This document shows, piece after piece, positions 1,825 to 42,751 of a stretch of DNA of 53,138 nt. The notes under the pieces are model-generated. The model was not told the DNA's origin. It saw nothing but the letters and a program-made list of their open reading frames with translations, and did not search any database. How positions within the stretch are numbered: position 1 is the first letter of the stretch; each line of letters opens with the position of its first letter. Made by a program: the position numbers and the translations under genes. The stretch is taken from positions 1 through 53,138 of IMG/VR virus record IMGVR_UViG_3300036792_000197; one strand, 5' to 3'. Source of the stretch: a virus.

Positions 1825-1998
1825 ATGGTTGACCGCGCGTTCCTCCGCTGGGCCTGCGTCATCGCCGCGCTGCTGTTCGCGCTGCTGTGGCTCGTGTCCG
1901 TCACCGTCACCGGCTTCGCCGCACCATCGTGGATACCGCCCGCCGGACTGCTCGCCATCGTCCTGGCCGTCGCGATACCGCCGTCGCCCGCGCCGTGA
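1825..1998 (+). CDS. Small two-helix membrane protein
   Basis: A 57-aa protein from ATG 1825, preceded by CGGAGG. It has two hydrophobic stretches (WACVIAALLFALLWLVSV and PAGLLAIVLAVAIP) and ends PPSPAP. No family recognised. It is coupled to the HNH gene, whose GTG lies in its last codons, and is the first gene after the 1739-1813 control region. Confidence 0.6.
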   Translation: MVDRAFLRWACVIAALLFALLWLVSVTVTGFAAPSWIPPAGLLAIVLAVAIPPSPAP

Positions 1999-2372
1999 GC
2001 CGCTACACCGGAACGACAGCGCAAAGAGGCTACGGCGCATCTCACCAGGCGCTGCGCAAGCAGCTGCTCGCACGCTGGCGGCCCGGCGACCCGTGCGCAC
2101 GCTGCGGCCAGCCGATGCTCTACCGCTGGATGACCGACGGCAGCGGGCGCCGAACCAGCGCGATCGACCTCGGCCACACCGACGACCGCACCGCCTACAC
2201 TGGCCTCGAGCACAGGTCATGCAACCGCCGCGACGGGCAGCGCAAGACCACCGCCGTACTACGCAGGCGCGGGCCCATGCCAGCACGGCAGCTGGCAGCC
2301 GTACGGATGCGGCAGTGGCAGGCGAGTGCGAAGGCAGTGGCAGGCGCGGCAAGGCAGGCACGGAACTGGTGA
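1995..2372 (+). CDS. HNH endonuclease next to the terminase genes
   Basis: A 125-aa protein with CARCG at about residue 34, then DLGHTDDR and LEHRSCNRRDGQRK, a compact zinc-stabilised HNH (His-Cys) fold with a basic C-terminus. GTG 1995 overlaps the upstream stop (GTGA). HNH proteins beside the terminase are needed for cohesive-end packaging in several HK97-type phages, so a packaging nickase role is likely. This matters because the terminase's own nuclease half looks degraded. A homing enzyme is the alternative. Confidence 0.8.
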   Translation: MSRYTGTTAQRGYGASHQALRKQLLARWRPGDPCARCGQPMLYRWMTDGSGRRTSAIDLGHTDDRTAYTGLEHRSCNRRDGQRKTTAVLRRRGPMPARQLAAVRMRQWQASAKAVAGAARQARNW

Positions 2373-2627
2373 CGACCACCCGCCGTGACCAGCCGCGAGG
2401 TCACAGGCAGTGACCACGGTCAGCGCCGACCACCCGCCCGGTCATCAGTGACCACCCGCCGGTTTACCATCCACCGGGCCTGATCGACCATCGCTAGGCC
2501 GCTGACCAGCGGAAATGCGGGGGCGGTCGAATCGCGCCCGGAATGTCCGATTCTGGGCCGACTCCGCAGCCAAACTTCATATGTTGACGGTTCAAGCGTA
2601 ACGTTTCCAGTGACGGAGGGTGACCGG
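2373..2627. other. Intergenic region before terminase: candidate packaging site
   Basis: About 255 bases without a gene. It holds three copies of GACCACCCGCC (2374-2384, 2428-2438, 2450-2460), then a somewhat less GC-rich stretch around 2560-2610 and the terminase ribosome site. Position, repeats and lack of coding suit a cos or pac site. Confidence 0.45.
2374..2460 (+). repeat. Three direct repeats GACCACCCGCC
   Basis: Exact 11-mers at 2374-2384, 2428-2438 and 2450-2460, with spacings of 54 and 22 bp. They could be binding sites for the small terminase or the neighbouring HNH protein. The repeats are seen directly; the role is inferred from location. Confidence 0.7.
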
Positions 2628-2960
2628 GTGGCTGATTCGGGCGCGCTGCGGGTGCGCCGGGCCCGCGCTCACGCGGCCGGCGATCACTCGCTGTGCAAGC
2701 GCTGCGCGGCTGTTCGCGTTGACGCGCCGCCACGCCTGACGGCCCTCCCGCCGGTGCCGCGTGACGCGAGCGCGGCCGAGGTTGACGCGGCGCTTGAGAT
2801 GCGCCGGCTGGCCCTCCGCCTGGTGACCGCGCACGAGAGCGAGCCGGCGAACACGCTCCTGGCGCGCGAGCTGCGGATGACGCTCGCCGAGCTGATGCCG
2901 AAGGGCAAGCAGGACGCTGATGCCGACCTCACGGGGCTCTTCAGCGCTTTGCAAGCCTAG
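2628..2960 (+). CDS. Probable terminase small subunit
   Basis: A 110-aa protein. GTG 2628 is chosen because GGAGGG ends 7 bases before it; the longer frame from 2610 would place that ribosome site inside the gene. It contains CKRC near the N-terminus and helical segments (EVDAALEMRRLALRLVTAHES, LARELRMTLAELM), and lies directly before and overlaps the large subunit. Identity rests on position, size and helical character; no HTH signature is certain. Confidence 0.6.
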   Translation: MADSGALRVRRARAHAAGDHSLCKRCAAVRVDAPPRLTALPPVPRDASAAEVDAALEMRRLALRLVTAHESEPANTLLARELRMTLAELMPKGKQDADADLTGLFSALQA

Positions 2961-3858
2961 GTTCGCGACCCCGGCGACGCCCGGGCGGGCGAACCTGGCG
3001 GACGGCATCGCGAAGACGGCGCAGGTGCTGAACTTCCGCACGCCGCTGGGCCCGGGCCTGATGCCGTGGCAGCACGAGATGAACCAGGTCGCGACGGAGC
3101 TGGACAGCCGCGGGCGGCTTGTCTACCGCCAGGTGGTCATCGAGGTGATGCGGCAGCAGGGCAAGTCGGTTGACCTGCTGTCGATGATGATCGCGCGGGG
3201 TTTGCGGCGGCCGGGGACGCAGATCTCGTACACGGCGCAGACGCGGCTGGACGCGCGGCACCGGATGATCGACGTGTGGTGGCCGCGTATCCAGGGCTCG
3301 AAGCTGGCGCGGTTCATTGACATCCGCAAGGGGTCGGGCTCGGAGGCGCTGGTGTTCGCGAACGGGTCGATGCTGGGCCTGGTGAGCAACACGCAGACCT
3401 CCGGTCACGGTGACAACCTGGACCTGGGCGTGATCGACGAGGCGTGGGCGCAGCATGATGATCACCTGGAGCAGGCGATGCGCCCGGCGATGATGACGCG
3501 GGACGCGCAGCTGTGGGTGGTGTCGGCGGCGGGTGACGAGCGGTCTGAGTACTTCCGCCGGAAGGTGGAGGACGGCCGGAGCCGCGCGCAGATGGGCGTG
3601 ACGGAGGGCGGCTGCTACGTCGGCTACTCGGCGCCGGATGACGCGGAGCCGGGGGACCCGGCGACGTGGCGGGCGTGCATGCCGGCGCTGGGGATCACGG
3701 TGACCGAGGAGACGGTGGCGACGGACTTCGGGCTGATGGAGCTCAGCGAGTTCCGCCGAGCGTACTTGTGCCAGTGGCCGGAGGTCGCGAAGCCGGGCTG
3801 GGGCGTGATCGGCCAGGACGCGTGGGGCGCGGCGGCCGCGCCGAGCGGGCTGCTGTGA
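2920..3858 (+). CDS. terL: Terminase large subunit, ATPase half (ORF stops at domain boundary)
   Basis: A 312-aa protein with the packaging ATPase: a Walker-A-like VMRQQGKSVDLL near residue 79, Walker B with catalytic Glu (LGVIDEAWA near residue 170) and motif III (WVVSAAGD). The frame ends with TGA at 3856-3858 after AWGAAAAPSGLL, exactly where related enzymes continue into the RNase H-like nuclease. The nuclease half is in the -1 frame and begins at GTG 3855 (GTGA overlap). ATG 2920 overlaps the small subunit by 41 bases. A sequencing indel would give the same picture. Confidence 0.85.
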   Translation: MPTSRGSSALCKPRFATPATPGRANLADGIAKTAQVLNFRTPLGPGLMPWQHEMNQVATELDSRGRLVYRQVVIEVMRQQGKSVDLLSMMIARGLRRPGTQISYTAQTRLDARHRMIDVWWPRIQGSKLARFIDIRKGSGSEALVFANGSMLGLVSNTQTSGHGDNLDLGVIDEAWAQHDDHLEQAMRPAMMTRDAQLWVVSAAGDERSEYFRRKVEDGRSRAQMGVTEGGCYVGYSAPDDAEPGDPATWRACMPALGITVTEETVATDFGLMELSEFRRAYLCQWPEVAKPGWGVIGQDAWGAAAAPSGLL

Positions 3859-4364
3859 GCGGCGAGGTCGCGTTCGGGGCGGCGATCAGCGAGGACCGGA
3901 AGCTGGCGTCGGTGGTCGCGGCAGGGCGCAGCGCGGCGTCGGGGAAGGTGCTGGTCGACCTGGCGCCGTACTACGGTCACCCGCGGGCTGTGGTGGCCCG
4001 GCTGGGGGAGCTGTACGAGAAGCATGACCCGGTCGCGGTGGTGGTGAACGCGAAGGCGCAGTCGGGGACGCTGGTGGAGCCGCTGAAGACGGCGGGGATC
4101 ATCGCGGTGCTGCCGTCGGCGGAGGACGTGGCGGTGGCGCACGGGCAGTTCCTGGACCTGGTGAACGACGGGGGCCTGGAGCACCTGGACCAGAAGCCGC
4201 TGACGGACGCGGTGCGGGCGGCGCAGCAGCGGCCGTTGTCGGGTGCGAAGGCGTGGGACCCGAAGGCGCCGGTGGACCAGTCGCCTCTTGTGGCGGCGAC
4301 TTTGGCGGTGTGGGCGTTCCTGCGGTGGGAGGAGCTGGCCGCGCCGGGCGTGTGGAATATCTAG
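3855..4364 (+). CDS. terL: Terminase large subunit, nuclease half as a separate ORF
   Basis: A 169-aa protein from GTG 3855. It aligns by eye with the C-terminal nuclease of HK97-type terminases, usually AFGVDVSPDR, then a VVLDPAG-type strand, then VDISPLVAA. Here these read AFGAAISEDR, VAVVVNAKAQSG and VDQSPLVAATLAVW, so the first two metal-binding Asp positions appear to be Ala and Asn and only the last is kept. Cutting may be lost, depend on other residues, or be supplied by the HNH protein at 1995. The consensus is from memory and should be checked by alignment. Confidence 0.75.
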   Translation: MSGEVAFGAAISEDRKLASVVAAGRSAASGKVLVDLAPYYGHPRAVVARLGELYEKHDPVAVVVNAKAQSGTLVEPLKTAGIIAVLPSAEDVAVAHGQFLDLVNDGGLEHLDQKPLTDAVRAAQQRPLSGAKAWDPKAPVDQSPLVAATLAVWAFLRWEELAAPGVWNI

Positions 4365-32734: not shown

Positions 32735-32740
32735 CTAACT
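32575..32740. repeat. Seven GTTAG-type motifs on both strands
   Basis: GGGTTAGT 32575, GGGTTAGG 32595, GGCTAACC 32625 (minus), TGTTAGCT 32652, GAGTTAGG 32660, GGGTTAGCC 32678, GGCTAACT 32733 (minus). Such density in 166 bp at the 3' end of a TraB-like gene recalls the clt transfer loci of Streptomyces plasmids, which carry short repeats bound by TraB. The motif itself differs from the published TRS. Confidence 0.6.
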
Positions 32741-34783
32741 CACCTCCCGCTGCCTGATCACCCGGTGCAGGTCGTCCAGGTCGAGCGTCGGGACGTTGCC
32801 CGGGTTCGTCGTCGGCACGCCCGCGGCCATCAGCAGCTTGCGCAGCTGCACGCCCGTCAGCCCCCGGTACTCGCCCCATGACGGCGCGAGGTTGTGCAGC
32901 AGGTCCGGCAGCTCCGACACCCGTACCTTGCCGGTGCGGTGCGCCGTGACCGTGTCCAGGTCTGCCAGCAGGTCCCGCGACACGATCGCCAGCGGGTGCT
33001 CAGTGCCGGGCACCGGAAGGTCCCGTTCCGCCAGTGCCGTTATGGCACGCTGGACGATCGGCGGCACCTGCGGAGTGTCGACGCGGTACGCCTGGATCAT
33101 CTCCGACCGCGCCTCGCCGGCGAATCCCTTGCACAGCGCGATGCCCCGGTCGGTGCCAGGGATCAGCTCGGTTGCCCGGTGGCCGGCCGAGTGCGCGCCC
33201 GGGCCGAGAATCGCGTCATTGGCGTAGATGTCCGCCAGCGCGTACGCCACGCCGACCGTGCAGTTCGTGGTGACGTCCCGCGGCATCGACCCGCGAACCG
33301 GCGCCTGCGTGCTGACCTTGATGTGCACGCCGCGCTTGCGGTCCAGTTTGACGTTTTCGCCGAGCAACTGCGCGAAGTCCTTGCCGAACTTGCGGTGGGT
33401 GATCGGCACGTGTGCCTCTTCGACCAGCACGAACACCGGGTGCAGTCCCACGCCCGCGTGCGCGATCTCCCTGGTGACCTCCTGGACGCCGTAGTCGACG
33501 AGCAGCTGCCCGCGGCGCTGCAGCTCCTCCTTTAGCAGTTCCTGCTCTTCGAGCATCCGCTCGATGACCTCGTCCTCTGCGCCCATCAGGTAGCGCGAGC
33601 AGCGCGGCTTGAAGGCCTCGAAGTCGAAGTTGGTGTCCGGCACGTAGATTCGGACCTCGGTGACGATGTCGAGCGTGTAACCGCAGGCCACGACGCGCGC
33701 GCCGTTGCTCTTGCCCTGCTCGGGCATCCCGCCGTCGATTGAGTTCCGGCCGATGACCGGGATATAAGCCAGGTCGCCTTTCAGTGTGCGGCCGAACGGC
33801 AGCCCCTTGAAGACGTCGGTGAAGCCCTCGGTAAGTAGCGGGTACGGTCCCGCTCCCTCTTCGAGCGCGCCCTTGTCGGCGATCCAGGTCTTGAGGATCG
33901 CGGCCTCGCTGCCGACCGACGGCCACACTTCCTTGGCGGCCCGGTGGACGCCGGCGGCGTAGTCGGCGCGGCGGCGCACTACCTTCTCGGCCGCCAGGCC
34001 CGGCAGCCGGATCTCCGAGTAGGTGCCGCGCCCTTCCTGCCGGCAGGAGACGACGAACTGAAGCGGCGCGCCCGCCTTCAGGTAGTCGGTGATCTGCGGG
34101 AAACGCATGTTCTTCAGGGCGTTCGTCAGCAGCAGCTCGGTGATCTCGTGGTCGACGTCGGCGTCGGCCGCGGTGCGCGCCCACAGCGGCGCGAGGCTGC
34201 CGCCGCGGCGGCCAGCCGTATACAGCACGGCTACGACAATGAACGGCCCGGCGATGACGCCGATATGCGTGATGGTCCTCGCGTCGCGGATCAGCGCGGC
34301 GGCCAGGTCGAAGAGCGCCGCGGGGTTGCCGAGCGCCCAGCCGCCCAGCAGCATCAGGATCACCGCGGCGAACAGCAGCCAGTGAATGTTCCTGGCCACC
34401 TCGATCAGCATGCCGACCCGGCCGCGGGTCCGCTCATGGCGCCGGTGCCGCTCGTCGGCCGCGTTCTTCAGCAGCAAAGCGGCCTTGTCGGCCTCGCCCT
34501 GCGCGGCGTACTGGTGCGCCATCCGCTCGGCGAGGGTGCGCCCCTGGCGCCTGCTGCGGGCCAGCACGACCGCGCCCGCGGCAACGTAGCTGGCGTGGCG
34601 GGCGACCGCCTTCGTGTGCGGGTGCGTGACCACGACCGTGACCGTCTGGAAAACCTGGATGACGACGGGCCGCGGTGCCTCCTGCTCGTCGACGATCTCG
34701 CCGAGCGGCGGCAGCTCGGCGACCACGCCCGTGACCACCTCGGCCACCTCGGCGTCGTCCGGCACGGCGGGCAGCCTGCTCAT
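32735..34783 (-). CDS. TraB/FtsK/SpoIIIE-type DNA translocase
   Basis: A 682-aa protein; ATG 34783 is chosen because it overlaps the stop of the gene upstream. Order: N-terminal cytoplasmic part (about 1-150), two membrane helices (HWLLFAAVILMLLGGWALG and THIGVIAGPFIVVAVLYTAG, about 150-205), motor domain with Walker A GMPEQGKSNGARVV (near 350) and Walker B VFVLVEEAHVP (near 435), and a C-terminal winged-helix-like end (GVQLRKLLMAAGVPTTNPGNVPTLDLDDLHRVIRQ). This is the plan of mycelial-actinomycete conjugative translocases that move double-stranded DNA. Some actinophages carry FtsK-like genes, so a packaging or segregation role is also possible. Confidence 0.85.
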   Translation of the reverse strand: MSRLPAVPDDAEVAEVVTGVVAELPPLGEIVDEQEAPRPVVIQVFQTVTVVVTHPHTKAVARHASYVAAGAVVLARSRRQGRTLAERMAHQYAAQGEADKAALLLKNAADERHRRHERTRGRVGMLIEVARNIHWLLFAAVILMLLGGWALGNPAALFDLAAALIRDARTITHIGVIAGPFIVVAVLYTAGRRGGSLAPLWARTAADADVDHEITELLLTNALKNMRFPQITDYLKAGAPLQFVVSCRQEGRGTYSEIRLPGLAAEKVVRRRADYAAGVHRAAKEVWPSVGSEAAILKTWIADKGALEEGAGPYPLLTEGFTDVFKGLPFGRTLKGDLAYIPVIGRNSIDGGMPEQGKSNGARVVACGYTLDIVTEVRIYVPDTNFDFEAFKPRCSRYLMGAEDEVIERMLEEQELLKEELQRRGQLLVDYGVQEVTREIAHAGVGLHPVFVLVEEAHVPITHRKFGKDFAQLLGENVKLDRKRGVHIKVSTQAPVRGSMPRDVTTNCTVGVAYALADIYANDAILGPGAHSAGHRATELIPGTDRGIALCKGFAGEARSEMIQAYRVDTPQVPPIVQRAITALAERDLPVPGTEHPLAIVSRDLLADLDTVTAHRTGKVRVSELPDLLHNLAPSWGEYRGLTGVQLRKLLMAAGVPTTNPGNVPTLDLDDLHRVIRQREVS

Positions 34784-34941
34784 GTCCACGACAGGACCCC
34801 CTCGCGCTGCAGCCGCTGGCAGCGCTGGTAAACCGCCCCGGCTGCGGCGACGGTGACGACCGCGGCGGCCACCATGGCACCGTGGACGCCAAGCAGCGCC
34901 AGGGCGAAACCGAGGACGGCCAGGACAGTGCGGGCGCTCAT
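34780..34941 (-). CDS. Tiny membrane protein of the transfer module
   Basis: A 53-aa protein from ATG 34941: MSARTVLAVLGFALALLGVHGAMVAAAVVTVAAAGAVYQRCQ, two hydrophobic helices, then a charged end. It overlaps the translocase start by 4 bases (ATGA), so it is co-translated. Position resembles the small Spd membrane proteins of actinomycete plasmids. Confidence 0.6.
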   Translation of the reverse strand: MSARTVLAVLGFALALLGVHGAMVAAAVVTVAAAGAVYQRCQRLQREGVLSWT

Positions 34942-35114
34942 GATGCCGGCCCTCCTGGCGCGCAGGTCCACATGTAGTGCTGGTGGCTCGGCATGCGCTG
35001 CGCTGTCTGCCCGGTGGCGCATTTCGGCTTCGGCGTGCACGAGGTGTCAACCGGCAGGATGCCAAGGGCCGCCAGGACTGCCACGGTGAGCCAGCGGCTG
35101 GCGCGGGCGCTCAT
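34938..35114 (-). CDS. Tiny secreted or membrane-anchored Cys protein of the transfer module
   Basis: A 58-aa ORF from ATG 35114, stop TGA 34940-34938. Signal-like start MSARASRWLTVAVLAALGILPVD, then a short Cys-containing part (TSCTPKPKCATGQ ... MWTCAPG). It overlaps genes on both sides by 4 bases. A periplasmic-side or surface partner of the translocase is a guess. Confidence 0.55.
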   Translation of the reverse strand: MSARASRWLTVAVLAALGILPVDTSCTPKPKCATGQTAQRMPSHQHYMWTCAPGGPAS

Positions 35115-35800
35115 GCCGACGCCCCGTTCATCGACGCGTAGCGGATCGGCTCGGGCGTCTCGGGCTCGTCCTCGGCGCCATCGTCTGCCACGGCCATGAC
35201 GACCTGGCGGACGATCTCGTTGTGGACGCTGAGCACAAGACCGATTCCCCGGTAGGTTGGGTTACCGCCGAGGCAGTCCTTGGAGTGGAACCAGAGGTCG
35301 CGGATCCGGCCGTCGCGGTCCTCTGCCACCCCGTGCCCGCATCCGACGGTCACGGTGACGGTGTTCGCCACCCGCTCGCCAGCCCGCGCCTTCAGCCACC
35401 GCTCGAACAGGAAGCTCGAGCAGGCGAATACCTGTGCCGCGACCGCGGCTATGACTGCGTCCCTGCGGCCGTAGATGATCCCGGATTCCCAGTTCGCGTA
35501 CAGCGACTCGAGCACGCCGGGCACGACGCCGATCAGCCCGAGCCAGGACTGCCACCCGGTCGCGACCAGGAAGAACACTGAGCCGATGACGATCTGGCCG
35601 TCGATGGCCAGCGGGATGATGTGAGCGGTTTTCCACGACTGGTGCGCTTGCAGCAGCAGTGCGCTGATGTGCGTATAGGAGACGAACCCGGTGCCGCCGA
35701 CCACGACGGCGAAGGCGGCGCCGATCGCCAGCGTGGCGCCTATCCCGGGGTGACTCCGGGTGGCGCTAGCGATGCGGGTGGGGAAATCGGTAAGGTCCAC
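35111..35800 (-). CDS. DUF2637 (SpdB-like) membrane protein
   Basis: A 229-aa protein from ATG 35800. Four hydrophobic helices with the family signature IIPLAIDGQIVIGSVFFLVATGWQSWLGLIGVVPGVLESLYANW; the C-terminal 90 residues are cytoplasmic and acidic. DUF2637 proteins are found in actinomycete plasmids and integrative conjugative elements beside TraB, and related Spd proteins support intramycelial plasmid spread. It heads the leftward transfer operon, divergent from a GntR regulator. Confidence 0.8.
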   Translation of the reverse strand: MDLTDFPTRIASATRSHPGIGATLAIGAAFAVVVGGTGFVSYTHISALLLQAHQSWKTAHIIPLAIDGQIVIGSVFFLVATGWQSWLGLIGVVPGVLESLYANWESGIIYGRRDAVIAAVAAQVFACSSFLFERWLKARAGERVANTVTVTVGCGHGVAEDRDGRIRDLWFHSKDCLGGNPTYRGIGLVLSVHNEIVRQVVMAVADDGAEDEPETPEPIRYASMNGASA

Positions 35801-35991
35801 GTGGGCCTCTTCCTGGTTGAGTCAGGTTGTAGGTGAGGGCTCTGCCCCCGGGTCGTCAGGTTGGTTCGCTGCCACCTGGCGGCCCGCCGTCGTTTCTGGC
35901 GGTTCCTGGCACTACCATACGACGCTCTGCCGTGCGTTGCATAGCGGTGCACCGCTATGGGGATATTTGCTCTGCTGGGGGAAGTGGTTCA
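35801..35991. other. Divergent control region of the transfer operon and GntR gene
   Basis: No gene in 191 bases. It contains the 20-bp palindrome at 35940-35959, a TTGCAT at 35937-35942 partly inside it (possible rightward -35) and, leftward, TATGGT (35919-35914) as a weak -10. It ends with GGGGGAAG before GTG 35992. Confidence 0.55.
35940..35959. promoter_or_regulatory. Perfect 20-bp palindrome, likely GntR operator
   Basis: CATAGCGGTG followed by its exact reverse complement. It lies in the divergent promoter region 33 bases before the GntR start, the expected place for an autoregulatory KorSA-type operator controlling both directions. Confidence 0.75.
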
Positions 35992-36222
35992 GTGCTGCGC
36001 ATGGCAGAGATCGGCTACGAGTGGCAGCGCGTGGCGGGCGACATCCTGCGGCGCATCGACAGCGGCGAGCTGCCGCCCGGCTCGATGCTCCGCGGCGAGC
36101 GGGCCCTCGCGGAAGAGTACGGCGTGAGCGTCGACACGATCCGCCGCGCTACGAAGTACCTGCGTGAGGAAGGGCGCGTCGTCACCCTGCCGGCCAAGGG
36201 CACGTTCGTGGCCGAGGGCTAA
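35992..36222 (+). CDS. GntR-type winged-helix regulator (DNA-binding domain only)
   Basis: A 76-aa protein from GTG 35992 (GGGGGAAG upstream; ATG 36001 possible). WQRVAGDILRRIDSGELPPGSMLRGERALAEEYGVSVDTIRRATKYLREEGRVVTLPAKGTFVA is a complete GntR wHTH with no effector domain. In Streptomyces integrative elements a GntR-type repressor (KorSA) silences transfer and excision genes; the divergent location before the DUF2637/TraB operon suggests the same. Confidence 0.88.
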   Translation: MLRMAEIGYEWQRVAGDILRRIDSGELPPGSMLRGERALAEEYGVSVDTIRRATKYLREEGRVVTLPAKGTFVAEG

Positions 36223-36300
36223 CGACCGCTCCGGGGTGTACCCGGGCGTGCCCGTCACTGCACAGGGACCGCCGGGAGTGCCCGCGTAGCGTCACGCGCC
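36223..36300. promoter_or_regulatory. Spacer with shared element GGGGTGTACCCGGG
   Basis: The 14-mer at 36233-36246 occurs again at 38084-38097 upstream of the integrase. It is near-palindromic around GTAC and followed by CGTGCCCG. A common operator for the second GntR gene and int is inferred. Confidence 0.55.
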
Positions 36301-36564
36301 ATGGAGGACGACGACGAGGCACCGCGGGCCGTCAGCCGCGGCGCGGCCTACGCCTACCGTCAGGTCGCCGACGACATCGCGGCCCGGGTCCGCGCGGGCG
36401 AGTGGCCGTTCGACGCACGGCTGCCCGGCCGGGAGGAGCTGGCGGCCGAGTACGGCGTCGCCGAGCGGACGGTGCGGCGCGCGATGCAGGTGCTCGAGGC
36501 AGAGGGGATCGTCGTCGTCGTTCCGGCCAAGGGCGTCTATGTAACATGGGCAGTCCACAAGTAG
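36301..36564 (+). CDS. Second GntR-type winged-helix regulator
   Basis: An 87-aa protein from ATG 36301. YRQVADDIAARVRAGEWPFDARLPGREELAAEYGVAERTVRRAMQVLEAEGIVVVVPAKGVYV is again a stand-alone GntR wHTH, clearly diverged from the one at 35992. No good Shine-Dalgarno is seen. It lies tail to tail with the integrase and may control it. Confidence 0.85.
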   Translation: MEDDDEAPRAVSRGAAYAYRQVADDIAARVRAGEWPFDARLPGREELAAEYGVAERTVRRAMQVLEAEGIVVVVPAKGVYVTWAVHK

Positions 36565-36721
36565 TGCACATGAGCACCCCGCGAACCCCCGTATCAGCCC
36601 GTAGCTACCCGTAGTAAAGTGCGCAGGCCGAAGGCAGGAAACGAACGCGCATTCCTGCTGCCAGCACCCCCGCACTGACATGCCGAGACAGTACCATCCG
36701 GCCATCTAGCTGGCAGCACCG
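36565..36721. other. Intergenic region with 10-bp iterons; attP candidate
   Basis: No gene. Three copies of CCCGTA at exactly 10-bp steps (36588, 36598, 36608) and an inverted repeat GCAGGAA/TTCCTGC (36634-36640, 36652-36658). It lies at the 3' end of int. Helically phased sites beside int suggest arm sites for integrase or excisionase. Confidence 0.45.
36588..36613 (+). repeat. Three helically phased CCCGTA repeats
   Basis: Copies at 36588-36593, 36598-36603 and 36608-36613, each followed by four variable bases, one DNA turn apart. Protein binding is inferred. Confidence 0.65.
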
Positions 36722-38059
36722 CTAAACCGGGCCCGCCTGGTGCACATCGGGTGCACTCGCGGGCGCCCCGGAGAAGAACGAGTCGACCGCCGCGCGGCCG
36801 TCGTCGTCGCTTCCGCCCGGCATCATGTGCGCGTAGATACCGACCACCGTCTTGACGCTGTCGCCGATCCACGACGCTACCCGGACCACGTCCCGCCCGG
36901 CCCGCAGCTGCGTGCTCACGAACGTGTGCCGCAGCGCGTGGAGGCCGTCGTCGCGCGGCCGGCCATCCTCCGGCGTCACCCCGGCCCGTTTCGCCGCCCG
37001 CCGCCACAGGTTGTTCAGCGACGTCCCGCGCACCGGCCGCCCGCCCGGCGAGGTGACCAGCAGCCGCACCGTCAGCGGCTTGCCGTGCCGCTCCCGGTCG
37101 GCCGGGTCGTGCCATGGCAGCGTCACCGACGCGGCGGGGAACTCGCCGAGGTGCCGCTGAAGGCGGCGCTTCGTCTCCGGCGACAGCGGGGCACTGTGCG
37201 GCTTGCGGTTCTTCAGCGGGCCGAACCACAGCTTGCCGTCCACGTACTTGAGCTGGCGCACCACCCGTACCCGCGGGTCGTCGCGCTTCAGCCAGTCGAC
37301 GTCATCGATACCCAGGCCGAGCATCTCGCCCTGGCGCATGCCCGTGCCCGCGCCCAGGTCGAGCAGGACGCGGTATCGGTCGGGCAGCTGCCCGCGCATC
37401 GCCTCGAGCTGCTCGAGCGACCACGGGCGCGCGAGGTGCTCGCCGACCTTCGGCCACTCCACCGACGGGACGCGGGTGGGGTCGCGCATCACGATGCCGT
37501 CGCCGATCGCCATCCGGAAGACGTAGGACACGTCGCCCATCACGTGCCGGGCCCGGATCGCCGACAGGGGGATCGCCGTCGCCCACGCCGAGGTGATGCT
37601 CGGCTGCGCGGCGAGCAGGCTCATGGCGTGCTGGCCGATAGACGGCGCCCCCGTAGGCGTCCTCCCGCTGCCAGCCTCGCCCTCGTACACGTGCAGCCGC
37701 AGCCGCAGCTCCAGGTCGGCGGCGGTCTCCGGGTTGGGGATCTTCCGCGCCGCCCGCAGCTGCTCGGCGTACCGCTGCAGGGTGACCTCCCCGGCGCGCG
37801 GGTCGACGTAGGTCCGCGTCAGGATCGCCGCGGCGACGACCTTGTCGTATGCCTCGGCGTGGAGCTCCGGGTCGGCGCCGTCGCGCAGCGCGAAGTTCCG
37901 CGCCCGCTGCTTCCCGGTCGCCGGGTCGCGCCAGCGCACCTGCCAGCGGTCGCCCTTCAGGTGACGGGTGCCCGGGTAGAGCTTGTTCCGGCCGCGGCCG
38001 CACTTGCACGGCTGGTCGCCTGCGTCCGGGTCCTTGTGCCAGCGGTCGTAGACGCCCAT
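36722..38059 (-). CDS. int: Tyrosine-family site-specific integrase
   Basis: A 445-aa protein from ATG 38059 (AGGAG 5 bases upstream). The N-terminus has a Cys pair (PCKCGRGRNKLYPGTRHLKGDRWQVRWRD), then a core-binding domain and the catalytic domain with Arg in GTGMRQGEMLGL, HALRH (His-x-x-Arg) and the tyrosine in GIYAHMMP. In IGDSVKTVVGIYAH the usual GH is GD. It would join attP to a host attB, probably a tRNA gene. The longer open frame to 38797 is antisense to other genes and was not used. Confidence 0.92.
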   Translation of the reverse strand: MGVYDRWHKDPDAGDQPCKCGRGRNKLYPGTRHLKGDRWQVRWRDPATGKQRARNFALRDGADPELHAEAYDKVVAAAILTRTYVDPRAGEVTLQRYAEQLRAARKIPNPETAADLELRLRLHVYEGEAGSGRTPTGAPSIGQHAMSLLAAQPSITSAWATAIPLSAIRARHVMGDVSYVFRMAIGDGIVMRDPTRVPSVEWPKVGEHLARPWSLEQLEAMRGQLPDRYRVLLDLGAGTGMRQGEMLGLGIDDVDWLKRDDPRVRVVRQLKYVDGKLWFGPLKNRKPHSAPLSPETKRRLQRHLGEFPAASVTLPWHDPADRERHGKPLTVRLLVTSPGGRPVRGTSLNNLWRRAAKRAGVTPEDGRPRDDGLHALRHTFVSTQLRAGRDVVRVASWIGDSVKTVVGIYAHMMPGGSDDDGRAAVDSFFSGAPASAPDVHQAGPV

Positions 38060-38083
38060 GGTGCTCCTGAAGACGATGTGACT

Positions 38084-38108
38084 GGGGTGTACCCGGGTGC
38101 ACCCGGGA
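38084..38108. promoter_or_regulatory. Operator candidate upstream of int
   Basis: GGGGTGTACCCGGG, shared with 36233-36246, runs into the 16-bp palindrome at 38093-38108, 25 bases before the integrase start. Likely the binding site of a GntR-type protein or the phage repressor. Confidence 0.55.
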
Positions 38109-38114
38109 GCTGCG

Positions 38115-38197
38115 GAAAATCCCACAGGAGAACTATTGCAACAGGCAAGTAACGGGGAGTAGTTTAACGATTCCCGTATAAATCTGTGGGAATTTTC
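38115..38197. repeat. Long-spaced inverted repeat GAAAATCCCACAG / CTGTGGGAATTTTC
   Basis: Arms 38115-38127 and 38184-38197 match except for one extra A. The enclosed 56 bases are unusually AT-rich for this genome. Fits paired integrase sites around an attP core or looping operators. Confidence 0.6.
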
Positions 38198-38233
38198 GGT
38201 AAAACCGTAGTTGGACCGTAGGGGGGGCTTGTA

Positions 38234-38545
38234 ATGGCGCAAGTTAAAGTTGTTTCTGTTGTTTCGAGGATTGCTGCTGTTGTCTTCTGGTGTCTTGCAT
38301 TGGTCACCCTGTTTACCCCGTCGATGCAAGGCGGCGGCCGCATGGTCCTCGCCGCGGTCCTGGCGGGAACGGCCACCGTCGTCGCGGCGCTCGCCTGGCT
38401 GGAGCAGCAGCGCGACGACCGCGGCGGCGACACGCTGAAGCAGGTAACCGACGAGTACCGGCGGCGGGAGGCCGCGCTTATCAGGACGTTCGCCTATCTC
38501 GCCGAGGCTCCGGCACAGCCGCAACGTCACCTGCACCGCGCCTAG
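38234..38545 (+). CDS. Small membrane protein with cytoplasmic coiled tail
   Basis: A 103-aa protein from ATG 38234 (GGGGGGG upstream). Two helices: VSRIAAVVFWCLALVTLFTP and MVLAAVLAGTATVVAALAWL, then QQRDDRGGDTLKQVTDEYRRREAALIRTF. Divergent from int and convergent with the repressor, its 3' end overlaps the repressor gene by 65 bases. A lysogeny-expressed membrane protein (exclusion or signalling) is possible. Confidence 0.65.
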   Translation: MAQVKVVSVVSRIAAVVFWCLALVTLFTPSMQGGGRMVLAAVLAGTATVVAALAWLEQQRDDRGGDTLKQVTDEYRRREAALIRTFAYLAEAPAQPQRHLHRA

Positions 38546-38906
38546 GCGGCTCCGAAAGGGCCCGGTCCATCGCTTCCTCGAGAGCGCTGGACCGGCCCCG
38601 CAGCACTTCGCGCATATGGTCCTTGAGCCGTTCGAGCTCTTCGGGAGTCGGCATCTCCGGCTCTTCTTCGGGCACTTCTGACGCGATGCGTTCCATCTCG
38701 CCCGACGGCCAGCGGAGCGCCTCTTCGATCTTGGCGCGCGTGACCGCGATCGGCCAGCGGTGCCTGATCTCCAGGTTGTAGACGGTCTTCGGGTCAATCT
38801 TCGCCGCGGCGGCTAGTTCTGCGCGGTCCATGCCCAGTCCGCCGCGCCTCGCGGCTACCGCGAGGGCGGCGCGCTTCCGGCCGTCCGCGCGGCTGTCTGC
38901 TGCCAT
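38481..38906 (-). CDS. XRE-type immunity repressor
   Basis: A 141-aa protein from ATG 38906. GMDRAELAAAAKIDPKTVYNLEIRHRWPIAVTRAKIEEALRWPSGEMERI is a Cro/CI-type HTH; a Glu-rich helical region (VPEEEPEMPTPEELERLKDHMREVL) follows. Location opposite a Cro-like gene with shared operators marks it as the lysogeny repressor. It appears leaderless: a -10-like CAAACT ends 6 bases before the ATG and no Shine-Dalgarno is seen. Confidence 0.82.
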   Translation of the reverse strand: MAADSRADGRKRAALAVAARRGGLGMDRAELAAAAKIDPKTVYNLEIRHRWPIAVTRAKIEEALRWPSGEMERIASEVPEEEPEMPTPEELERLKDHMREVLRGRSSALEEAMDRALSEPPRRGAGDVAAVPEPRRDRRTS

Positions 38907-41548: not shown

Positions 41549-41874
41549 TGGGCACCGTAACCAGCGCGTCCGCCGTCGTCCTCACAGGCGCCTGGCACGC
41601 GTTCGCCGGCATCTTCTGGGGCGTCTGCAAGTGGACCGGCCTCGCCGTCATCGGCACCTGGTTTGGCCTCTTCGTCTGGGCCTACTTCTTCGGCAGCCGC
41701 AAGCCCGGTGGGCCGCTCCCCGTCCGCAAGCCGCAGGTCGGCGACGACACGCTCGCCATGCTCGCGCAGCGCCGCGAGGTGCGGCCGCGGCACGGGTGCG
41801 ACGAGGACACGTTCATCGGCGACGGGATGACCGAAGCGCTCGACCGGATGCTCAGGGGTGAGGGACGTGGCTAG
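41548..41874 (+). CDS. Membrane protein
   Basis: A 108-aa protein from ATG 41548. Hydrophobic region ASAVVLTGAWHAFAGIFWGVCKWTGLAVIGTWFGLFVWAYFFG forms two close helices; the C-terminal 60 residues are polar (DTLAMLAQRREVRPRHGCDEDTFIGDG). No family recognised. Confidence 0.6.
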   Translation: MGTVTSASAVVLTGAWHAFAGIFWGVCKWTGLAVIGTWFGLFVWAYFFGSRKPGGPLPVRKPQVGDDTLAMLAQRREVRPRHGCDEDTFIGDGMTEALDRMLRGEGRG

Positions 41875-42751
41875 GCCGGTCATCACCAAGCCAGGACTGT
41901 ACCCGGACATCGACGAGGACTGGTACCACGCGGACTGCGTTGAGGGCGGCTCGCTGTCGGTGTCGGGGGCTAAGCTTCTCCTTCCGCCGTCGTGCCCGGC
42001 CCTGTTCGACCACGCGCGCAGGCACGGCAAGCACAGCAAGTCGATGGACACCGGAACCCGCGTGCACGCCCTCGTGCTCGGCAAGGGCGAAGAGCACCTG
42101 GCCCTGCTGCCCTACGACGAGTACCGGACCGACGAGGCGAAAGCAGCCCGCGACGCGGCCATAGCAGCGGGGAAGATCCCGACGAAGCCGCGCGAGATGG
42201 CCGAGGCCGAGAAGATCGCCGCCGCCGTCTTCAACGACAAGGAAGCGCGACGGCTGCTCGACACCGTCACCGACACGGAGCTTTCCGGCTTCTGGTTCGA
42301 CACCGAGCACAAGATCTGGCTGCGCATGCGCCTCGACGCGCTCGGCTGGGGCGAGCGCCCCGAGATCGTGGACGTCAAGACGACCGCCGACTCATCGCCC
42401 GCCGCTTTCGCCAAGAGCATCGCCGACTGGCGTTATGACATGCAGGACCGCCATTACCGCGAGGGACTCGCCGCGATCCTGTCCGGCACCCCCGGCGAGC
42501 TGGAAGCCGACGACATCCGGTTCACCTTCCTGGTGGTCTGCACCGCCGCGCCCTACCTCGTCATGACCTACGAGCTCGGCAGCGACGACACGGAGCGGGC
42601 CGACGAGTCCAACCGGATCGCCCGCGGCATCTACGCCCGCTGCTCAGAACGGAACGAGTGGCCCAAGTGGTCAGACTCGCCCGTTGAGCTGAGCCTCCCT
42701 TACTACCGCGCCAAGCAGATCGAGAGAGACATCAATGACTACTACAACTGA
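41867..42751 (+). CDS. RecE-type exonuclease (PD-(D/E)XK, DUF3799-like)
   Basis: A 294-aa protein; GTG 41867 is preferred (AGGGG 8 bases upstream), GTG 41858 possible. Family signs: LYPDIDEDWYHAD at the start, SVSGAKLLLPPSCPALFDHARRHG, MDTGTRVHALVLG (active-site His), LRMRLDAL and EIVDVKTT (D-x-K of the PD-(D/E)XK core), then a YREGLAAIL helix. It degrades one strand of DNA ends so that the RecT partner encoded next can anneal. Confidence 0.88.
   Translation: MARPVITKPGLYPDIDEDWYHADCVEGGSLSVSGAKLLLPPSCPALFDHARRHGKHSKSMDTGTRVHALVLGKGEEHLALLPYDEYRTDEAKAARDAAIAAGKIPTKPREMAEAEKIAAAVFNDKEARRLLDTVTDTELSGFWFDTEHKIWLRMRLDALGWGERPEIVDVKTTADSSPAAFAKSIADWRYDMQDRHYREGLAAILSGTPGELEADDIRFTFLVVCTAAPYLVMTYELGSDDTERADESNRIARGIYARCSERNEWPKWSDSPVELSLPYYRAKQIERDINDYYN

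Follow-up and report, generated by a model that had tools for sequence, protein, structure and literature searches.

The window, i.e. the whole stretch of DNA analysed here, is an IMG/VR virus record of 53,138 bp. The large terminase at bp 2920-4364 of this record is encoded by two ORFs and not by one. As the first-pass annotation had read it, the ATPase ORF ends at 3858 and the nuclease ORF starts at the GTG at 3855, in the -1 frame relative to the ATPase ORF, with the four bases GTGA common to both; reading of the ORFs bore this out. The features of the locus are as follows.

About 1998-2372 (open frame from 1887), plus strand: HNH endonuclease gene (variant HNH), likely cos nuclease (phrog_1808, E 9e-15 and 1.1e-16).
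2610-2960, plus strand: small conserved ORF of 116 aa directly 5' of the ATPase gene, in the small-terminase position (homologues in 79 loci).
2920-3858, plus strand: terminase large subunit (TerL), ATPase half, 312 aa (phrog_9, E 3.5e-38; PF03354, E 6e-5).
3151-3168, plus strand: Walker A motif RQQGKS (R78-S83) of the ATPase half (R78, Q79, G81 and K82 invariant in 29 relatives).
3436-3441, plus strand: Walker B Asp173-Glu174 of the ATPase half (invariant in 29 relatives; equivalents invariant in 27 cultured TerLs).
3790-3855, plus strand: C-terminal tail of the ATPase half ending VIGQDAWGAAAAPSGLL, a putative nuclease-docking element (homology breakpoint; low pLDDT).
3855-3858, plus strand: GTGA stop/start overlap of the ATPase and nuclease genes (same junction spacing in 62 relatives).
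3855-4364, plus strand: TerL, nuclease half, 169 aa, RNase H fold (phrog_9, E 6e-11; AF2; Foldseek).
3882-3884, plus strand: metal site 1, Ala10 in FGAAISED, where Asp or Glu is expected (alignment with relatives and cultured TerLs).
4047-4049, plus strand: metal site 2, Asn65 in VVVNAKAQ, where Asp is expected (alignment with relatives and cultured TerLs).
4257-4262, plus strand: Asp135-Pro136, Glu-Arg in all 54 Glu-type relatives, varying between types alongside sites 1 and 2.
4275-4277, plus strand: metal site 3, Asp141 retained in PVDQSP (Asp in 106 of 107 nuclease halves, Glu in one).

On the phrog_9 (TerL) profile the ATPase half covers positions 249-473 and the nuclease half positions 481-668; the split therefore lies at the ATPase/nuclease domain boundary. 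The PF03354 match of the ATPase half falls just under the cut-off of that profile. Of the properties of a tailed-phage large terminase (phrog_9/PF03354), the P-loop ATPase with Walker A and B and the RNase H-fold nuclease domain are present; the single polypeptide with both domains is absent from the window and from all split-clade relatives with both halves, and the three acidic metal ligands are replaced by the set Ala10, Asn65 and Asp141. The AF2 model of the ATPase half (pLDDT 83.7) had HK97 TerL (6z6d, E 2.2e-11) as its top PDB match, and the tail (residues 289-312, pLDDT below 50 in the single-chain model) is the sole part without confident structure. Homologues of the 116-aa ORF were found upstream of the ATPase gene in every locus tabulated; Pfam and PHROG searches with this ORF gave no match, and from its position we infer a putative TerS. 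Elsewhere in the window, at 32735-38797, lie a large minus-strand protein that looks FtsK-like (no Pfam match), a weak DUF2637 match, a GntR regulator and a tyrosine integrase; inside a phage genome, this cluster is reminiscent of the one that controls integrative elements of actinomycetes.

Comparison of folds was needed for the nuclease half because a phmmer search of it against PDB chains gave no match. The AF2 model (pLDDT 86.7) has an RNase H fold, and Foldseek matched it to the TerL nuclease of G20c (5m1f, probability 1.00, TMq 0.66, E about 0.02) and to T4 gp17 (3ezk, probability 1.00, TMq 0.64, E about 0.02). In the model, Ala10 lies in the strand 6-11, Asn65 directly after the strand 61-64 and Asp141 before the last helix (143-162), so that the three residues are predicted to occupy the expected places of the RNase H ligands. 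The initial reading that two Asp positions of the nuclease half are replaced while the Asp of VDQSP is kept was borne out by this model and by the alignment with cultured TerLs, which place no intact Asp at sites 1 and 2. That Asp is the normal residue at site 1 holds for most cultured TerLs, but in the closest relatives that do not belong to the Ala clade this residue is Glu. At this site the Asp of Volt TerL pairs in the alignment with an Asp of HK97 TerL (6z6d) that, given an assumed 10-residue N-terminal tag, is taken to be the published D302. The absence of Arg136 is not claimed as the loss of a base like K463 of HK97, since a basic residue is retained at 137.

Scans of viral contigs yielded 107 distinct nuclease halves. 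At positions 10/65/141 these read Glu/Asp/Asp in 52 cases and Ala/Asn/Asp, the state of the window, in 49; six other states occurred once each. In a tree built without the metal-site columns, the Ala/His rows formed one group of 52 (SH-aLRT 89) amid the Glu rows, requiring one change at site 1 (E/A) and three at site 2. Four columns split the two types nearly perfectly, namely 10 (E/A), 65 (D/N), 135 (E/D) and 136 (R/P); the probability of finding two of the three ligands among four of about 160 columns is approximately 0.0014 (hypergeometric, by hand). Within the Ala clade Ala10 and Asn65 are conserved and do not drift. Median dN/dS was 0.39 for Ala-type and 0.42 for Glu-type nuclease halves, values that indicate purifying selection on both. 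One relative (L099) has Ala/Asp/Asp with Glu-Arg at 135-136 and may be an intermediate or a separate ligand loss; it sits on a long branch and its placement is unsure. Six relatives (L018, L020, L021, L027, L099 and L110) carry an insertion of about 8 residues containing CxCH directly after metal site 1, which might bind zinc beside the old active site.

These data bear on a nuclease half that is still active with changed metal binding, as the first-pass annotation had allowed, through a site rewired from Asp141, Asn65 and nearby acids (Glu13/Asp14 or Asp135). The near-invariance of Asp141, the conservation of Ala10 and Asn65 in the Ala clade as if newly constrained, and the CxCH insertion in some relatives are in its favour, and some metal binding could remain because Glu13 and Asp14 are conserved together with Asp141. 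Nevertheless, we consider a rewired site unlikely. Two-metal RNase H-like cleavage expects acidic ligands, yet at no alignment column has the Ala clade gained an acid in place of the lost ligands, and Glu13/Asp14 have counterparts in the Glu-type halves and in many fused TerLs, hence they are not a compensation.

Of the relatives, 36 have 3 kb or more of sequence upstream, and in every one of these 36 an HNH homologue precedes the nuclease half by 1.7-3.6 kb. As in the HNH-assisted cos packaging module of the HK97 type, the HNH gene adjoins the terminase genes. In vitro, cleavage at cos is promoted by gp74, the HNH protein of HK97 (PMC9410871); one proposal is that TerL cuts one strand and gp74 the other (PMC9410871, PMC11331095). 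A cut made by the HNH protein, which had been raised for the gene at 1995, is the best-supported mechanism on the basis of synteny and ligand loss. Against it, HK97 has an HNH protein together with an intact triad, the HNH of the window is a variant of putative activity, and an HNH gene close to a terminase may also be a homing gene (PMC10448857). The gene is equally present beside Ala-type and Glu-type nuclease halves, and HNH alone does not predict ligand loss because it also stands beside Glu/Asp-type halves. The correlation of ligand loss with HNH presence was uninformative: loci of either state have an HNH gene, and so, at the end of the genome, do nearly all cultured phages sampled. Within the HNH family (window 1998-2372 and relatives) the patterns CxxC...H..CN and CxxG...C..HN alternate, as if a zinc ligand had moved within the finger.

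A dead RNase H half could also be combined with a cutter other than HNH, from phage or host, or with unit-length genomes that are left uncut as in phi29. In motors of the phi29 type the nuclease domain is vestigial and the packaged DNA is of unit length (PMC7672431), and the window encodes a PDDEXK-like DUF3799 protein. The gene for the latter is far away (41858-42751), whereas the HNH gene is a constant neighbour of the packaging module; a terminal-protein replication system was not noticed in the window, and we regard this alternative as improbable, somewhat more so than a rewired site.

The split itself is conserved. With cultured references excluded, the two halves were separate genes in 161 of the 161 loci with both, and none was fused; among loci with both halves, fused TerLs were confined to the cultured reference phages. 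The ATPase/nuclease junction has the same overlap spacing in 62 loci, i.e. most junctions. In 23 loci 83-1036 nt lie between the halves, and in some of them the insert includes complete genes, which were read by their motifs:

L046 and L119: DNA-methyltransferase-like gene between the terminase halves.
L127: HNH-like gene between the terminase halves.
L131: helix-turn-helix-like gene between the terminase halves.

A scan of genome contigs added one relative, on a short contig of an Actinomycetota MAG. Sharing of both the split and the substitutions by relatives, which the first-pass annotation had named as a check, was found: the split is present in all with both halves and the Ala/Asn pair in 49 of the 107, which is far beyond chance.

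The other DNA and genes between the halves mean that no indel is involved and make a frameshift product very unlikely. A programmed -1 frameshift fusing both frames into one chain would fit the position of the nuclease ORF, in the -1 frame of the ATPase ORF and overlapping its stop; however, no slippery heptamer is present within 3800-3900, a start codon lies exactly at the overlap, and the intervals in the 23 relatives speak against it. A sequencing or assembly indel, or a phage in decay, would look alike as a frame break of a usually single gene in one genome, but is refuted by the same split across many metagenomes and dozens of contigs, by whole genes between the halves, by the purifying selection (dN/dS about 0.39) and by the intact ATPase motifs. 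The split terminase is apparently a functional design, not damage or decay.

The halves have also been exchanged. The ATPases of 101 loci with both halves fell into four families; the three families other than that of the window have 25-45% identity to the window ATPase in the members checked, and their representatives match phrog_9. Each family occurs with nuclease halves of both types. The nuclease halves of L103 and L018 are about 91% identical with ATPases of about 28% identity, and L118 and L046 show the reverse (ATPase 82%, nuclease 44%). Overall, pairwise identities of ATPase and nuclease correlate at 0.22. In the swapped pairs compared, at uninterrupted junctions, the DNAs become homologous again 56-67 bp ahead of the nuclease start codon, and the breakpoint falls at the ATPase tail motif W.VI..D.W. 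That the tail is inherited together with the nuclease half shows clearly in the DNA of swapped pairs and weakly over all pairs (correlation 0.35). The exchanged unit would accordingly comprise the ATPase tail and the nuclease half, and by analogy with the linker strand of HK97 the tail probably docks on the nuclease half. Of the options left by the first-pass annotation, a two-chain terminase is the one that stands, given the split in every relative, the genes between the halves in some and the reassortment of the halves; decay does not.

What the sequences show is a conserved pair of genes, lost ligands, swapped halves and an HNH gene in synteny; on this basis we propose a permanent two-chain motor in which the nuclease subunit is a structural remnant, most likely catalytically dead, and the HNH protein cuts cos. 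We give this reading a probability of about 0.6. The RNase H-fold subunit, translated on its own, would dock on the motor ATPase, probably via the short C-terminal tail of the latter. The simplest mechanism would be that the HNH protein took part first, after which the Ala/Asn clade could do without the RNase H site. In the clade of the window the RNase H subunit, with two of its three metal ligands lost, most likely no longer cuts and would persist in the motor for structure and DNA binding. The concatemer would then be cut at cos, assuming cos-type packaging, by the HNH protein encoded just upstream.

For comparison, 27 one-piece TerLs of cultured actinophages, chosen by their similarity to the window protein, were aligned; the set was extended to 29 with Lactococcus phiLC3 and Propionibacterium PAS50. 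The ATPase Lys and the Walker B Asp/Glu were invariant (27/27; ranks 1, 3 and 4 of 460 columns), and the three nuclease positions ranked 130, 97 and 163. A full set of three acids at the nuclease site is confined to Volt (DDD) and Zucker (EDD) (2/27, and 2/29 after extension), leaving an incomplete triad in 27 of the 29 cultured phages sampled (cultured phages: L048-L062, L181-L195). Examples are PantheRoc (D/N/V), Giles (E/D/P), CactusJack (H/D/V), REQ2 (G/D/E) and Phrann (Y/D/D). On the tree of the 29, which has some long branches and gaps at site 2, at least 9, 6 and 4 changes are needed at sites 1, 2 and 3, pointing to several independent triad losses. A D/Q/D triad is present in 6 of the 27 and in the two-gene TerL of Baudelaire; this recurrent Gln at the second metal site is spread over several phage clusters (L051, L052, L058, L181, L182, L183 and L186). 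Most of the cultured phages sampled have an HNH match immediately ahead of TerS or at the end of the genome; Baudelaire, Gardann and Izel have none at these places. The triad pattern is a strong lead and not a census, given that these TerLs were picked for their similarity and that a one-residue misplacement is possible in distant alignments. It contrasts with the statement that the TerL nuclease is fully functional in all phages that are not phi29-like (PMC7672431). A tentative extension, which we hold at somewhat less than even odds, is that in HNH-bearing phages of this TerL superfamily, including cultured mycobacterium, gordonia and rhodococcus phages, the HNH protein and generally not the TerL nuclease is the genome cutter, the RNase H domain being a structural module that in one lineage is a separate, interchangeable gene.

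We found no published work on split terminases or inactive TerL nucleases in HNH phages, although an earlier mention in the literature on HNH packaging proteins is possible. A split TerL annotation (Baudelaire) and a vestigial nuclease (phi29) were already known; the interest lies in their combination and in the hint that nuclease loss is common in HNH phages. In this family the TerL nuclease is a separate gene with two ligands gone, and in the cultured sample the triad is usually incomplete and the ATPase site never. If the proposed reading is true, phages such as Giles allow a direct test of which enzyme cuts cos. In addition, evolution has swapped the halves of this naturally two-part motor, which makes the split family useful for studying communication between motor and nuclease domains.

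Among known systems, HK97 TerL (6z6d) with gp74 shares the fold of the ATPase half, the HNH gene beside the terminase and the RNase H-fold nuclease; it differs in being one chain with catalytic residues D302/D388/D471 (PMC9410871), whereas the window has two chains and two ligands lost. The phi29 family likewise keeps an RNase H-like domain without catalytic residues, proposed to serve in DNA binding and motor transitions (PMC7672431), and with two of three ligands gone the nuclease half of the window fits this description. The resemblance would be one of working principle and not of homology: in phi29 there is a pRNA, the DNA is of unit length and the reduced fold belongs to the same chain, in contrast to the separate gene, RNase H fold and HNH neighbour of the window. 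In Mycobacterium phage Baudelaire TerL is likewise encoded by two overlapping genes, annotated as ATPase-domain and nuclease-domain, but the nuclease-domain gene (285 aa) starts with sequence apparently of the ATPase part, i.e. TerL is cut elsewhere, its triad is D/Q/D and the genome end has no HNH. Terminase genes interrupted by introns or inteins also have their TerL coding sequence in pieces; these regain one chain by splicing, e.g. terL of ICP1 (PMC10448857), whereas in the split described here there is mostly no intervening element and both halves have a start and a stop of their own.
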